Shown here: positions 2,686 to 20,015 of the stretch, in pieces
Layout of the letters: each line of letters starts with the position of its first letter
Numbering within the stretch: the stretch's first letter is position 1
Origin: a virus
DNA: 20,015 nt
Virus record (IMG/VR): IMGVR_UViG_3300043409_000468
Span: 1 to 20,015 of that record
Direction: 5' to 3' (one strand)
Program-made: the position numbers and the translations under genes
The notes under the pieces: generated by a model
What the model saw: only the letters and a program-made list of their open reading frames with translations
What the model was told of the DNA's origin: nothing
Database searches by the model: none

Positions 2686-4920
2686 TTATACCTTTGCTAT
2701 GCTTAAAATAATTGTTGATGTTTTTACAGTTGTAGCACTATCTACGTTAAATGCCAATATGTCTCCAGCATTGAGAGTGGTTGTCCATCCTGTCAATGTA
2801 GAACTCTGACCTTTTACTGCAGAAGATGTTAATGGTTTTGCAGAACCTGTAATTGTATCTGCCACTGTTGGCGGGTAGTTAGCATAAGTATCTTCCCATA
2901 TGTCAAATGTAATAGAACCAGACACATCATTTAAGACTGTCCATTTTGTAATAGTACATGCAAATGGTATTTCTACATACCCCTTTATTCCTGTTGTAAT
3001 AACAGATCCGCCACCATCTACAACAAATGTTATAGCTCCGTCTGCAGAACCTCTTAGTCCTTGAATTCCTTGAGTTCCCTGTATTCCCGTAGTTCCCTGT
3101 AAACCTGCTTTAGAAAATACAAATGAATAAGTAGTACCATTTGTAAATGTGCTACCGCTTGATATAAATTCAACTGGTATTGTATAAATACCAGCGTTAC
3201 TTGTTATGCTTCCTGAAATCTGGAATTGTACAGAAGAGCTTCCATTTGAAAATGATATTATGTCTCTTAAACCTAAACTTGCTGCTGAACCACTAGCGAT
3301 ATAAACATTACTTACAGATATTGGAAGAGAGTTATCAAAGTTAAATTGTCCAGCATTTGAAGATGTTGATGTAGTTCCAGAATTAAATACTAGTGGAACT
3401 CCTGCTACCGCTCCTTGCACACCTTGTGTGCCTTGAATACCAGTTAATCCTTGAGTTCCAGTTGTACCCTGAGAACCTGTTATTCCTTGTGTTCCCTGTG
3501 CTCCTACAAAGCCAGAAGCACTTGTTTCAACCCATTGAGATGTATTTCCATCATTAATATATGTATATTCACTGCCAGTATCTGAGTCTACCCATCTATC
3601 TCCTACTGTTGGTGAAGTTGGAGCAGTTGCTTGATATGAATACCCTCCACCACCGCCACCAGATCCTGAAGGACCCTGAACACCTTGAATAGATATTCCC
3701 TGTATACCCTGAATGCCTTGTGTACCCTGAGCTCCTTGAGCTCCAGTTCCAGTTAATCCTTGGATACCCAACGATCCCTGAACACCCTGCGTACCTTGAG
3801 TTCCATTGGTTCCTGAAGTTCCCTGAGACCCTGTTGTACCTTGTGTGCCTTGTGTGCCTGAAGTTCCCTGAGAACCTGTTGTGCCTTGAGAACCTGTTAT
3901 TCCTTGAGTTCCTTGTAAGCCTGTAGCTCCTTGTGCTCCTGTTGTGCCCTGTATGCCTGTAAAACCCTGTAATCCTGTAGTTCCTTGAAATCCTGTGGTT
4001 CCTTGAGTACCTGTTGCACCTTGCGTACCAGATGTTCCCTGACTTCCAGTAATTCCTTGAGTTCCAGTTGTACCCTGAGAACCTATCGCACCTTGGCTTC
4101 CCGTTGTTCCTTGAGATCCTGTGGTACCTGTTGTTCCCTGTATTCCTGAAGCTCCCTGAGAACCAGTAGTTCCTTGAATACCTGTTGCAATAGTTACAAG
4201 AATAACTGATAAGCTATTAGCAAATCCAGTTAAACCAGTGCCTCCTGCAGAGTTATAGGCGACTGGAATTTGTACATAAGCATTAGACCCAGGGATAATG
4301 GTTCCATTTACTGTAAACCGCTGAAAGTTATCAGAGTTAGAAGAATCTTGAATAAGAACGCTATCTCCAGATTTTAACAATCCTAAAAATACATCAATGT
4401 CAATATTTGTTGTAGTTAGATGATCAATGTATAATGCTGTAGCACTAGTTTGAGTTGCATTGTTGTAGCGTATTTTTCCTGGTCCAGGATCGGAATTAGC
4501 TGTAGATGCTGTATCTAATGAGTAATTGTAATAGCTAGAGGAGTTTCCACTAGCACCAGTTATTCCTTGGACTCCTTGTGTTCCAGTACCGCCTTGAATT
4601 CCAGTTGTTCCCTGTGTACCCTGAGAACCAGTTGTTCCTTGGGTTCCTGTTGTTCCTTGAGAGCCTGTGGTTCCTTGAGAACCTGTTGCACCCGTAGTTC
4701 CTGTAAATCCTTGAATTCCAGTCGTACCTTGTATACCAGTTATTCCCTGTGTTCCTGAAGTTCCCTGAGAACCAGTTGTTCCTTGTACGCCTACAGATCC
4801 TTGTGTTCCTTGAGAGCCTGTTATACCCTGAGAACCAGGTTGGCCAGTTGCACCCTGCAAACCATTTGTTCCTTGTACGCCTTGTACACCATTTAAGGGA
4901 AACGAGGATATTTTAGGCAC
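2686..4920 (-). CDS. Large collagen-like tail fibre with three globular inserts
   Basis: 744 aa from a GTG at 4920, preceded by AGAGG. Order: Gly-X-Y tract about 11-126; globular insert about 127-247; second and longest Gly-X-Y tract about 248-418; poly-Gly hinge (421-426) and a small WVDSDTG/TYINDG/QWVET module (427-470), typical of fibre adaptors; short Gly-X-Y tract about 471-504; globular insert about 508-604; Gly-X-Y linker about 606-624; C-terminal domain 625-744. The C-terminal domain (FVVDGGGSVITTGIKGYVEI...) is a receptor-binding-type domain I have seen in other phage fibres. The two larger inserts resemble one another (IPVAYNSAGG against IPVEFISSGS), suggesting duplication. X-Y pairs are dominated by Thr, Gln, Ser and Ile, with almost no proline. 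Inferred: trimeric fibre with a distal receptor-binding knob. Confidence 0.9.
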   Translation of the reverse strand: MPKISSFPLNGVQGVQGTNGLQGATGQPGSQGITGSQGTQGSVGVQGTTGSQGTSGTQGITGIQGTTGIQGFTGTTGATGSQGTTGSQGTTGTQGTTGSQGTQGTTGIQGGTGTQGVQGITGASGNSSSYYNYSLDTASTANSDPGPGKIRYNNATQTSATALYIDHLTTTNIDIDVFLGLLKSGDSVLIQDSSNSDNFQRFTVNGTIIPGSNAYVQIPVAYNSAGGTGLTGFANSLSVILVTIATGIQGTTGSQGASGIQGTTGTTGSQGTTGSQGAIGSQGTTGTQGITGSQGTSGTQGATGTQGTTGFQGTTGLQGFTGIQGTTGAQGATGLQGTQGITGSQGTTGSQGTSGTQGTQGTTGSQGTSGTNGTQGTQGVQGSLGIQGLTGTGAQGAQGTQGIQGIQGISIQGVQGPSGSGGGGGGYSYQATAPTSPTVGDRWVDSDTGSEYTYINDGNTSQWVETSASGFVGAQGTQGITGSQGTTGTQGLTGIQGTQGVQGAVAGVPLVFNSGTTSTSSNAGQFNFDNSLPISVSNVYIASGSAASLGLRDIISFSNGSSSVQFQISGSITSNAGIYTIPVEFISSGSTFTNGTTYSFVFSKAGLQGTTGIQGTQGIQGLRGSADGAITFVVDGGGSVITTGIKGYVEIPFACTITKWTVLNDVSGSITFDIWEDTYANYPPTVADTITGSAKPLTSSAVKGQSSTLTGWTTTLNAGDILAFNVDSATTVKTSTIILSIAKV

Positions 4921-10885: not shown

Positions 10886-10922
10886 CGTTACATTTCATAT
10901 ATTTGATATTGATTTCTAAAAG

Positions 10923-10931
10923 TGCTATACT
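10923..10931 (+). promoter_or_regulatory. Extended -10 promoter (TGCTATACT) for the lysozyme-like gene
   Basis: TGC-TATACT on the plus strand. The predicted transcription start (about 10938) falls on the palindrome at 10937-10956. Confidence 0.6.
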
Positions 10932-10936
10932 AAGTA

Positions 10937-10956
10937 TTGACACCATACGGTGTCAA
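10937..10956. promoter_or_regulatory. Perfect palindrome at the transcription start of the lysozyme-like gene
   Basis: Arms TTGACACC (10937-10944) and GGTGTCAA (10949-10956) around ATAC. As DNA it is a good two-fold operator, placed to block the promoter. As RNA it would form an 8-bp hairpin at the very 5' end, upstream of the AGGAGG site (10966-10971). The sequence cannot separate the two. Confidence 0.6.
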
Positions 10957-10977
10957 ATGCATTTTAGGAGGAAAAAC

Positions 10978-11529
10978 TTGACAAAAAATAAGATGCTTGT
11001 AGGAATGATTAGCAGTGCGGTTGTTTTAGTCCATATTTTAGGGGCTATGCCATCTCATGCTGCTAAGAATAATTTATCTAAACAGGAGCTAGTTGTTATT
11101 GCCACCCCAAAGGTGGCTTTTCTGCTTTCTGAGGATAAAAATAACAAAATACTTACTAAGTATGAAAATGCGACAAGTTTAACTGACAGCCAGTTGGTTG
11201 AATTACTTGAAGCAGTGGGGTTCAAAGGAAAGGCTTTAAAAACTGCCTGGGCGGTAGCTAAAGCTGAATCTAATGGTCGTCCATTTGCTTTTAATGGAAA
11301 CACCAAGACTGGAGACTCCTCATTTGGAATCTTTCAGATTAACATGCTTGGCAATTTAGGGGAAGATCGCACAGACAGATATAATCTTGATTTATATGCT
11401 GAGCTTTTTAGCCCTGTAAAAAATGCTCAAATTGTATACCGCATGACAAAAGGCGGTACTGATTGGAGCTCATGGTCATCTTATAACAAAGGTGCTATAA
11501 ATAAATGGCTAGGTAACTTTCCACAATAA
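10978..11529 (+). CDS. Secreted lysozyme-like (SLT-type) muralytic protein
   Basis: 183 aa from TTG 10978, chosen because AGGAGG ends 6 bases before it; an in-frame ATG at 10993 is too far from that site and an upstream one at 10903 precedes the promoter. Residues 1-28 look like a Sec signal peptide: K-rich start, hydrophobic core MLVGMISSAVVLVHILGAM, cleavage near SHA-A. Residues about 68-183 form a lysozyme-like domain: LTDSQLVELLEAVGF, AWAVAKAESNGRP with probable catalytic Glu97, SFGIFQINMLG, and a C-terminal WSSWSSYNKGA. Known: this E / GxFQ(I)N pattern belongs to transglycosylase-type muramidases. It stands alone on the plus strand within minus-strand virion genes, with its own promoter, palindrome and terminator. 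It could be an exported endolysin or a host-derived cargo gene. Confidence 0.85.
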   Translation: MTKNKMLVGMISSAVVLVHILGAMPSHAAKNNLSKQELVVIATPKVAFLLSEDKNNKILTKYENATSLTDSQLVELLEAVGFKGKALKTAWAVAKAESNGRPFAFNGNTKTGDSSFGIFQINMLGNLGEDRTDRYNLDLYAELFSPVKNAQIVYRMTKGGTDWSSWSSYNKGAINKWLGNFPQ

Positions 11530-18574: not shown

Positions 18575-18603
18575 ATCCTATCAGATACCCCGCCAAAAGT
18601 CAA
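18575..18603 (-). promoter_or_regulatory. Promoter TTGACT-17-TAGGAT for the four-gene operon
   Basis: Minus strand: -35 TTGACT (18603-18598), 17-bp spacer, TGA-TAGGAT (18580-18575), so it also has an extended -10. The repeat GGCGTGTCGCC (18614-18604) abuts the -35. Confidence 0.75.
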
Positions 18604-18614
18604 GGCGACACGCC
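18604..18614 (-). repeat. GGCGTGTCG element, copy a
   Basis: Reads GGCGTGTCGCC on the minus strand, directly before the -35 of the operon promoter. The surrounding 14 bases (ACGGCGTGTCGCCT) recur at 20002-20015. Other copies of the 9-base core lie at 18819 and 19947. Confidence 0.7.
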
Positions 18615-18624
18615 GTTGGCGTGG

Positions 18625-18640
18625 TGTGATTTAGATCACT
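18625..18640. promoter_or_regulatory. GlxR/Crp-like box 1
   Basis: TGTGATTTAGATCACT. One mismatch from the actinobacterial GlxR consensus TGTGA-NN-TA-NN-TCACA. It sits upstream of the operon promoter and overlaps the stop of the 36-aa gene. Confidence 0.65.
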
Positions 18641-18746
18641 TGCTAGAGTAGGTACCCTTAGCGATTAGAGCGTCTAGCATAGCGTAATCTGCTAGGGTCT
18701 GCTCAGGTGTCTGAGCGAGGATTTCATTTTGTTTAACAGTGTTCAT
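18636..18746 (-). CDS. 36-aa hypothetical protein at the control region
   Basis: MNTVKQNEILAQTPEQTLAD, then YAMLDALIAKGTYSSK. Start ATG 18746 follows GAAAGG; the longer frame to 18869 is rejected since it runs through the promoter and a DnaA box. Helical, unrecognised. It has its own promoter (18751-18805), which is a copy of the plus-strand promoter on the other side of the control region, so it is co-regulated with the plus-strand early operon. Crp-like box 1 overlaps its end. Confidence 0.65.
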   Translation of the reverse strand: MNTVKQNEILAQTPEQTLADYAMLDALIAKGTYSSK

Positions 18747-18750
18747 TTTT

Positions 18751-18805
18751 GAACCTTTCTTTAATTTGTTTATACTAGAAGTATAACAGCTACCACTGAC
18801 AAATT
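18751..18805 (-). promoter_or_regulatory. Early promoter, minus copy of a 55-bp divergent pair
   Basis: Contains AATTTGTCAG, then TGT-TATACT, then TTCTAGTATAAA and an AAGAAAGGTTC leader. It aligns without gaps to the plus-strand promoter at 18971-19025. TATACT-TCT-AGTATA forms a 6+6 palindrome over the -10, a possible operator. Confidence 0.65.
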
Positions 18806-18818
18806 TGCATGTATTTCG

Positions 18819-18827
18819 GGCGTGTCG
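18819..18827 (+). repeat. GGCGTGTCG element, copy b
   Basis: In the context TTCGGGCGTGTCGT, identical to copy c at 19947-19955. The distance to the following Crp-like box is the same (21 bases, start to start) in both. Confidence 0.65.
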
Positions 18828-18839
18828 TGAAACTATTTT

Positions 18840-18855
18840 TGTGATATAGGCCACA
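18840..18855. promoter_or_regulatory. GlxR/Crp-like box 2
   Basis: TGTGATATAGGCCACA. One mismatch from TGTGA-NN-TA-NN-TCACA. It lies four bases before the first DnaA box. Confidence 0.65.
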
Positions 18856-18859
18856 TGAG

Positions 18860-18880
18860 TTATCCACATAGTTATCCACA
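18860..18880 (+). promoter_or_regulatory. Tandem perfect DnaA boxes, candidate replication origin
   Basis: TTATCCACA at 18860-18868 and again at 18872-18880, same orientation, 12 bases apart. Both match the bacterial DnaA-box consensus TTAT(C/A)CACA. They lie in a gene-free region between divergent early promoters, next to an A/T tract (18890-18899) that could unwind. Confidence 0.65.
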
Positions 18881-18909
18881 GGTGTCGGCATATTTTTTTG
18901 TCGGCCCCC

Positions 18910-18941
18910 TGTGGTGTAGGTCACATGTGTTCTACATCACA
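18910..18941. promoter_or_regulatory. GlxR/Crp-like boxes 3 and 4, in tandem
   Basis: TGTGGTGTAGGTCACA (18910-18925) is followed without gap by TGTGTTCTACATCACA (18926-18941). Each has one mismatch from TGTGA-NN-TA-NN-TCACA and keeps the central TA. They lie about 30 bases upstream of the plus-strand early promoter. Confidence 0.7.
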
Positions 18942-18970
18942 AAGTCCTAAATGTCCGTTTTGTACCCCTC

Positions 18971-19025
18971 AATTTGTCAGTCCCCTCTGATAGACTTCCA
19001 GTATAAAGAAAATCAAGAAAGGTTC
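18971..19025 (+). promoter_or_regulatory. Early promoter, plus copy of a 55-bp divergent pair
   Basis: AATTTGTCAG, then TGA-TAGACT, TTCCAGTATAAA and AAGAAAGGTTC. Gapless alignment with 18805-18751, about 40 of 55 positions identical. It drives the operon from 19050. Confidence 0.65.
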
Positions 19026-19049: not shown

Positions 19050-19322
19050 ATGACTAACACTAAAGTAAACAAGTGCAAGGCAATTGCTTGCACACACTCA
19101 GGCTCTTACACAGAGCGTAATCATATTGTGAACAATAGAGTTGTTCGCAAGCATAATCAGAAGTGGCACTTCTGTAATGTATGTGACAAGGTTGTACACC
19201 TTGACTATATCGCTTACCATGAAATGAAATGTGAGTCATTTCGTGAATTGCAAAAGAATTGCATAGCGAAAGACCACTATGCTTTAGGCTTTCATAGTGA
19301 GGGTGTTGCTTGCAATATGTAA
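19050..19322 (+). CDS. 90-aa Cys/His-rich early protein
   Basis: MTNTKVNKCKAIACTHSGSY then a basic stretch (NHIVNNRVVRKHNQKWH), FCNVCDKVVHLDYIAYHEMK and CESF. C9, C14 and H16, then C42, C45, H50, H57 and C61 can form one or two zinc sites; C71 and C88 are extra. The family is not recognised. Start ATG 19050 follows GTTAGG, with a second AAGAAAGG further up. First gene of the plus-strand early operon, under the promoter at 18971-19025. Small zinc proteins of this kind in phage early regions are often host-takeover factors (inference). Confidence 0.75.
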   Translation: MTNTKVNKCKAIACTHSGSYTERNHIVNNRVVRKHNQKWHFCNVCDKVVHLDYIAYHEMKCESFRELQKNCIAKDHYALGFHSEGVACNM

Positions 19323-19930: not shown

Positions 19931-19946
19931 AATGCCGACGCATTCG

Positions 19947-19955
19947 GGCGTGTCG
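19947..19955 (+). repeat. GGCGTGTCG element, copy c
   Basis: In the 14-base context TTCGGGCGTGTCGT shared with copy b. Confidence 0.65.
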
Positions 19956-19967
19956 TATTCTGTAGGA

Positions 19968-19983
19968 TGTGTTTAAGATCACA
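19968..19983. promoter_or_regulatory. GlxR/Crp-like box 5
   Basis: TGTGTTTAAGATCACA. Two mismatches from TGTGA-NN-TA-NN-TCACA. It starts 21 bases after the start of copy c. Confidence 0.5.
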
Positions 19984-20003
19984 CAAAAGCTTCCCCAACC
20001 TAC

Positions 20004-20014
20004 GGCGTGTCGCC
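20004..20014 (+). repeat. GGCGTGTCG element, copy d, at the window edge
   Basis: GGCGTGTCGCC within a 14-mer identical to that of copy a. In copy a the next bases are the -35 TTGACT; here the window ends at the shared T, so another promoter probably begins just outside. Confidence 0.55.
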
Positions 20015-20015
20015 T

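Follow-up and report, generated by a model that had tools for sequence, protein, structure and literature searches.

Promoter signals matching Crp/GlxR and PafBC sites suggest that a phage family reads the metabolic and DNA-damage state of its host

Introduction

In the middle promoters of phage T4, a MotA element near −30 replaces the contact that sigma would otherwise make with a −35 element, the −10 element is normal, and both MotA and its partner AsiA are phage proteins. Host regulators also act at phage promoters. Sites for the global regulator NtcA have been predicted in many promoters of cyanobacterial T4-like myoviruses, at 1–16 per genome (PMC3037559), and in phage T1 the lysogeny switch is under the control of host CRP, exerted via pir (PMC6737242). 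Binding of ssDNA activates PafBC, which recognizes a −26 motif and, inserted between the DNA and domain 4 of SigA, adapts the polymerase to promoters (PMC11804915). The mycobacterial PafBC-dependent motif, in which TGTCGG, TGTCAG, or TGTCAC is followed by N10 and TA-N3-T (PMC8151990), resembles the RecA-independent damage promoter RecA-NDp (PMC8223512; PMC6789036). In the open-licence literature on GlxR/Crp sites in phage promoters, we found nothing comparable to the locus described here save the NtcA and T1 cases, and, as far as titles and abstracts tell, open-licence work that bears on PafBC and phages covers only WYL defence regulators and studies of hosts.

Here, we analyze a stretch of 20,015 bases with 37% GC (the window), which is the full length of a virus record and possibly a partial genome. 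Its promoter signals match the sites of both Crp/GlxR and PafBC, suggesting that these viruses read the metabolic and the DNA-damage state of the host.

Results

Crp/GlxR-type boxes in the window

An initial annotation proposed that five GlxR/Crp-type operator boxes flank divergent early promoters near one end of the window. All five TGTGA-N6-TCACA boxes are present, with the palindromic half-sites at exactly this spacing; those at 18625, 18840, 18910, and 18926 differ from TGTGANNTANNTCACA at one position and that at 19968 differs at two, and the pair described as back to back does abut directly (18910–18925 and 18926–18941). Near-perfect boxes (≤1 mismatch) were enriched in the window (5 vs. 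0.7 expected), with all five in the last 1.4 kb, and a pattern similar to the box was found five times per strand, compared to 0 for a reversed control. At ≤3 mismatches, the window had 12 boxes compared to 16.8 in shuffled sequences; because it detected no excess, this looser scan was uninformative and was set aside.

We inferred transcription starts by taking the first T of each −10 element as −12. The box TGTGATTTAGATCACT (18625–18640) is centered 64.5 bp 5′ of the inferred start of a minus-strand promoter (18603–18575), a SigA-type TTGACT-N17-TAGGAT in which TG precedes the −10 element and no PafBC core is present; relatives have promoters of the same class. This promoter is directed at a 57-aa ORF (18523–18350, minus strand), the first ORF past it. 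The box TGTGATATAGGCCACA (18840–18855) is centered 74.5 bp 5′ of the inferred start of another minus-strand promoter, whose core, TGTCAG (18801–18796)-N10-TATACT (18785–18780), is of the PafBC/RecA-NDp type (motif as in PMC8151990). The first ORF past this promoter, at which it is directed, encodes 36 aa (18746–18636, minus strand), with the start codon at 18746 assigned from its position past the promoter and from an AGAAAGG-like ribosome site. On the plus strand, the distal box of the back-to-back pair, TGTGGTGTAGGTCACA (18910–18925), and the proximal box, TGTGTTCTACATCACA (18926–18941), lie 85.5 and 69.5 bp, respectively, from the inferred start of a promoter with the PafBC/RecA-NDp-type core TGTCAG (18975–18980)-N10-TAGACT (18991–18996) (motif as in PMC8151990). 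A gene for a 90-aa Cys/His-rich protein of unassigned function (19050–19322, plus strand) opens the plus-strand operon and served as the anchor for finding relatives. Across 18751–19025, which holds a 55-nt, 80% inverted repeat (arms 18751–18805 and 18971–19025), the divergent promoters and their leaders are outward-facing copies of one another. The box TGTGTTTAAGATCACA (19968–19983) is near the contig end, and its promoter probably lies beyond that end.

Two TTATCCACA sequences, which we take to be the DnaA-box consensus, lie between the divergent promoters (18859–18880), and TGTGGATAA/TTATCCACA-like sequences occupy the equivalent place in several relatives (L005, L006, L008, and L019); the pair is a possible origin or site of DnaA control. 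Elsewhere, the window encodes a 744-aa protein with collagen-like QGTTGxQG repeats (2686–4920), amid minus-strand tail-fibre-like genes, and a lysozyme-like protein with an SLT_3 domain (10903–11529, plus strand). Comparison of the window with Rfam gave zero matches.

Conservation of the boxes in relatives

Whole-window blastn against phage records gave zero matches, and relatives were therefore drawn from IMG/VR. The 90-aa gene has relatives on 15 IMG/VR contigs (59–76% identity). Because its product had zero matches among GTDB genomes or named phages, a neighbouring protein, GP88 (PF17338), replaced it as the query; a GP88 profile search matched at least 580 viral stretches, and the best 80 (1.35 Mb) were kept.

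The 15 contigs with the 90-aa gene contained 144 boxes with ≤1 mismatch, compared to 15 for the reversed pattern. On an 89-kb and a 54.6-kb contig, the boxes are clustered in one small-gene region (about 7.6 and 10 kb, respectively) at a density of ~1 per kb, and each contig has a single match elsewhere. When the promoter before the 90-aa gene was aligned from seven contigs, the columns of the box and the core were kept and much else had diverged. The initial annotation named an even spread over the genome and an absence of conservation as outcomes that would count against it; neither holds, and conservation of the boxes across relatives upholds its reading of them as Crp/GlxR-type operators at divergent promoters.

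In the best 80 of the at least 580 GP88 loci, the exact palindrome was present 403 times, compared to a mean of 3.4 for 29 permuted palindromes, although many of these loci are mutually related, so that the copies cannot all be taken as separate events. When all 1024 possible half-sites were compared at N6 in these best 80 loci, TGTGA-N6-TCACA ranked first, with 403 copies compared to 64 for the runner-up, and the exact palindrome had 0 copies at either N5 or N7. ORFs of ≥100 aa make up 44% of this sequence from the best 80 loci, and 391 of the 403 exact boxes fall outside them. At least one exact box was found in 80/80 and at least three in 73/80 of the same loci, which have about five exact and about ten near-perfect boxes per locus overall. 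Boxes in relatives also prefer TA at the center. Because the loci are interrelated, the phasing described below was tested on a de-duplicated set.

The boxes are thus intergenic, placed upstream of promoters, and kept in relatives, and they are not chance occurrences. An artefact of chance or composition would agree with the lack of excess in the window at ≤3 mismatches but not with the enrichment, the specificity for N6, the intergenic siting, the phasing, or the conservation; the comparison of 403 with 3.4 copies and the phase tests refute this explanation, which we regard as exceedingly improbable.

A PafBC-type core in most of the promoters

The earlier reading of the window missed two features: most of the promoters have a PafBC/RecA-NDp core, and the distances from box to promoter are helically phased. 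TGTCAG is among the k-mers most enriched beside the boxes of relatives. In these phage relatives, TGTC[A/G]G and TANNNT were found 787 times at a spacing of N10, compared to 8–52 times when any other spacing between 6 and 14 was used, and a perfect box was present 20–80 bp upstream of 240 of the 787 N10 cores, compared to 0–4 for other spacings. TGTC[A/G]G sits at −28 to −23 in the phage promoters, and those with boxes have a weak −35 element and TG ahead of the −10 element. The window cores that begin at 18801 (minus strand) and 18975 (plus strand) agree with the PafBC/RecA-NDp motif. The presence of this core in most promoters suggests that they also incorporate DNA damage as a second input from the host. 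Core and box are linked yet separable, because 274 of 526 PafBC cores in the phages lack a near-perfect upstream box.

We also considered TGTCAG as a misplaced −35 element or a MotA-like box, a reading that was dropped on the strength of the exact agreement with the PafBC motif. LexA boxes as a general control were dropped as well, being only sporadic. The window has no LexA GAAC-N4-GTTC box, and the SOS-type sequence CGAACA-N2-TGTTCG was found once each in 7/80 loci (L094, L110, L123, L126, L130, L147, and L154; best 80 of at least 580) and 0 times for controls; a few members of the family may also answer to LexA.

As controls, we scanned three other actinophages. The GP88-bearing mycobacteriophage D29 had no box and no PafBC core, and 50-kb samples of two WhiB-bearing phages, Grayson (41% GC) and MeganTheeKilla, had one and two boxes (≤1 mismatch), respectively, and one core apiece. 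Because none of these phages has a comparable set, the arrangement of box and core seems, as judged against this control sample of three, to be a trait of this low-GC phage family rather than of actinophages generally.

Geometry of box and promoter

Among 153 non-redundant single-box promoters, box centers were 64.5, 73.5–76.5, or 83.5–85.5 bp upstream of the inferred start and, more rarely, 53.5–55.5 or ~100 bp upstream, with intermediate distances nearly empty. Phase coherence for these 153 promoters was 0.71, compared to ≤0.32 in 2000 jittered controls. Back-to-back pairs were positioned 69.5/85.5 or 70.5/86.5 bp from the inferred start. SigA-type promoters alone (TTGAC, no PafBC core) gave distances of 54.5, 64.5, and 74.5 bp in 65 non-redundant cases, among which diverged homologues may be counted more than once. 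The box centers are therefore upstream, at spacings of whole helical turns, an arrangement that fits a class-I activator with a flexible α-CTD contact. Compared to the E. coli class-I series, the phage distances run about 3 bp longer. Distances of about 54, 64, 74, and 85 bp are those expected of a Crp-like activator that works in the class-I mode.

Alternatively, the boxes might mainly repress or insulate, with Crp (or another protein) silencing the early promoters until cAMP falls, or the sites might titrate Crp. Near-perfect sites number about ten per phage locus, compared to nearly none per host genome, so that multiplication of phage DNA could titrate the protein, and host CRP is known to control phage T1 via a phage regulator (PMC6737242). 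However, the phased positions are all upstream of the core, with none overlapping it, which argues against repression, and titration requires neither helical phase nor intergenic placement. We consider repression or titration as the main role to be very unlikely and favor class-I activation.

Other conserved motifs beside the boxes

The window contains a GGCGTGTCG / CGACACGCC motif at 18603–18619, 18815–18828, 19943–19956, and 19999–20015. This motif has 274 copies in the 1.35 Mb of relatives (L082–L161; best 80 of at least 580), compared to 0 for a permuted control, and is often 40–49 or 140–190 bp upstream of a PafBC-type −10 element. Repeats of TGTCC/TGTCCG spaced ~10 bp apart (AATGTCCGTTTTGT type) are found between box and promoter in the window (18944–18965) and in relatives and are enriched adjacent to boxes, as are GCGTCTCA and TTAAGA. 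An ATACT-N3-AGTAT palindrome spans the −10 element and start of some promoters, both in the window (18773–18785, minus strand) and in relatives, with weak support from column pairing. TAGTA-N6-TACTA ranks second among exact palindromes, with 64 copies in the best 80 of at least 580 relatives.

Candidate hosts and the proteins that may bind

One relative encodes WhiB, a protein described as exclusive to Actinobacteriota (PMC10202952), which suggests an actinobacterial host, and one contig with GP88 and boxes is binned with a 1.3-Mb Actinomycetota MAG. Two other box-bearing contigs of the family, L070 (CAINGU010000031.1) and L071 (VGXN01000109.1), are filed in GTDB under cyanobacterial and Phycisphaerae MAGs, respectively, and are probably misbinned. 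Because these other bins are wrong, binning is weak evidence of host, and the family of the Actinomycetota MAG, chosen from a single phage contig binned with it, is a candidate host family. The hosts of these viruses are probably freshwater actinobacteria.

Proteins with a cNMP-binding domain, mostly of about 230 aa, were found in 25 of 31 genomes of the candidate MAG's family. MAG G016 itself had no cNMP match, and a first apparent Crp match in it (L164) was dropped as a GntR-like protein. Comparison of one candidate-host Crp with M. tuberculosis CRP (3d0s) gave a match at 7.5e-77 and showed the same recognition helix, SRETVNKALADFA, in both proteins, and, by inspection, the crp-type genes of candidate hosts adjoin an endonuclease III-like gene. 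TGTGA-N6-TCACA was not enriched in the candidate host genomes, which had 0–1 exact sites each, and at one mismatch seven of these genomes had 99 boxes compared to 97 for the control, so host Crp possibly has few or looser sites there.

We found no Crp-family HTH domain (PF13545) in 50 viral contigs (15 + 35), which reach 115 kb, with several >100 kb, and may be incomplete, and no cNMP-binding domain (PF00027) in 15 of them. The initial annotation left open whether the boxes serve a Crp of the host or of the phage. Because Crp domains were absent from these contigs and the candidate host has a GlxR/Crp ortholog, the host protein is the likelier ligand, and the proposal of a Crp-like protein encoded by the phage fared poorly.

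The boxes might still bind a phage regulator that has no recognizable likeness to Crp, or whose gene the contigs lack, and that activates with the same geometry; a gene of this kind could escape detection if contigs are incomplete. The contrast between host genomes without box enrichment and phages with about five exact copies per locus (best 80 of at least 580) would suit a system private to the phages, and the conserved motifs described above (GGCGTGTCG and TGTCCG) imply further regulators. Against this idea, several of the 50 contigs without a Crp-family HTH exceed 100 kb, and the palindrome, its N6 spacing, and the central TA are those of a GlxR/Crp site and match the recognition helix of the candidate host Crp. 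A private phage regulator therefore seems rather unlikely to us, and host Crp is preferred as the putative ligand.

Adjacent pairs of WYL genes were present in 7/7 single-genome candidate hosts, and one such pair matches PafB and PafC of 7p5x (1.7e-45 and 7.5e-25, respectively). The strict core TGTCAG-N7-TGNTANNNT was found nine times in seven candidate host genomes, compared to one time for a control, and one of these cores precedes recA and has an SOS-like TCGAACAGATGTTCGG next to it (L220). L221 has the same arrangement as this recA core, and in L224, also from a candidate host, a core is upstream of a CarD-like ORF. Among 20 viral records, a scan for WYL domains gave a single match, which was below the cut-off.

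These results bear on the possibility that TGTC[A/G]G-N10-TANNNT is read not by host PafBC but by a phage sigma factor or by a factor that appropriates sigma, like MotA of T4. The core is an element of the −30 type combined with a weak −35, as sigma appropriation would have it, and isolated Nanopelagicales phages do encode a sigma factor. Nevertheless, the match to the PafBC motif is letter for letter and includes the spacing, PafB, PafC, and a recA promoter with this core are found in candidate hosts, and no WYL protein exceeded the cut-off in the 20 viral records. We judge a phage-encoded reader of the core to be unlikely and host PafBC to be the better candidate.

Discussion

Our results suggest a model in which host PafBC drives the early promoters of these phages and host Crp, bound at phased class-I boxes, raises their activity; we hold this model to be probably correct, with binding, activation, timing, and host deduced from sequence patterns. 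Infection would yield ssDNA, as entering, replicating, or damaged DNA, and PafBC bound to ssDNA would bring SigA RNA polymerase to TGTCAG-N10-TANNNT. At most promoters, sigma adaptation by PafBC together with the −10 element would take the place of a good −35 element, and Crp bound upstream on the class-I face of the helix would contribute a further contact. A minority of promoters would use ordinary SigA recognition (TTGAC) aided by Crp alone. The ssDNA made during infection may, in this way, feed PafBC, the activator on which the phage itself relies. Two features lead us to infer early timing: the gene content, which comprises small genes, GP88, and DUF932, and a location apart from the structural genes. 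Of all the steps, we are least sure of the part played by cAMP as a report of energy or carbon state.

In a broader form, the model holds that the early operons of this actinophage family answer to two host inputs jointly, the ssDNA-sensing PafBC and the cAMP receptor Crp, so that the repair alarm raised by infection is the on-switch and energy state tunes the response, a proposal that we think somewhat better than even. If true, DNA damage caused by infection would be the on-signal for viral genes. The several hundred boxed phage promoters also constitute a natural dataset for class-I geometry and sigma adaptation in actinobacteria.

What appears to be new is the use of PafBC promoters by phages and the pairing of these promoters with Crp in helical register, of which we found no report in the titles, abstracts, and open-licence texts consulted. 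The NtcA sites of cyanophages are the nearest parallel, as there too phage promoters contain predicted sites for a Crp-family host regulator and a phage copy was not proposed (PMC3037559). NtcA, however, senses 2-oxoglutarate and recognizes GTA-N8-TAC, whereas the sites described here are of the Crp/GlxR type, helically phased, and coupled to a PafBC core. In phage T1, which infects E. coli, host CRP affects a single regulatory gene, whereas here about ten phased sites are distributed across the early region. The boxes share TGTGA-N6-TCACA and the central TA with GlxR sites in Corynebacterium and Crp sites in Mycobacterium. Those sites belong to the hosts, whereas ours are predicted operators that sit in phages, with the candidate host chromosome not enriched. 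The parallel with T4 middle promoters likewise stops at the identity of the activator, as MotA is a phage protein and PafBC is a host activator. Finally, the phage promoters and the PafBC/RecA-NDp promoters of mycobacteria and other actinobacteria have the same core, TGTC[A/G]G-N10-TANNNT, and a weak −35 element (PMC8151990; PMC11804915; PMC6789036). Elsewhere, this core marks a host DNA-repair regulon, whereas here it is present in several copies per phage genome, at the operons of the phage, frequently in combination with a Crp box.
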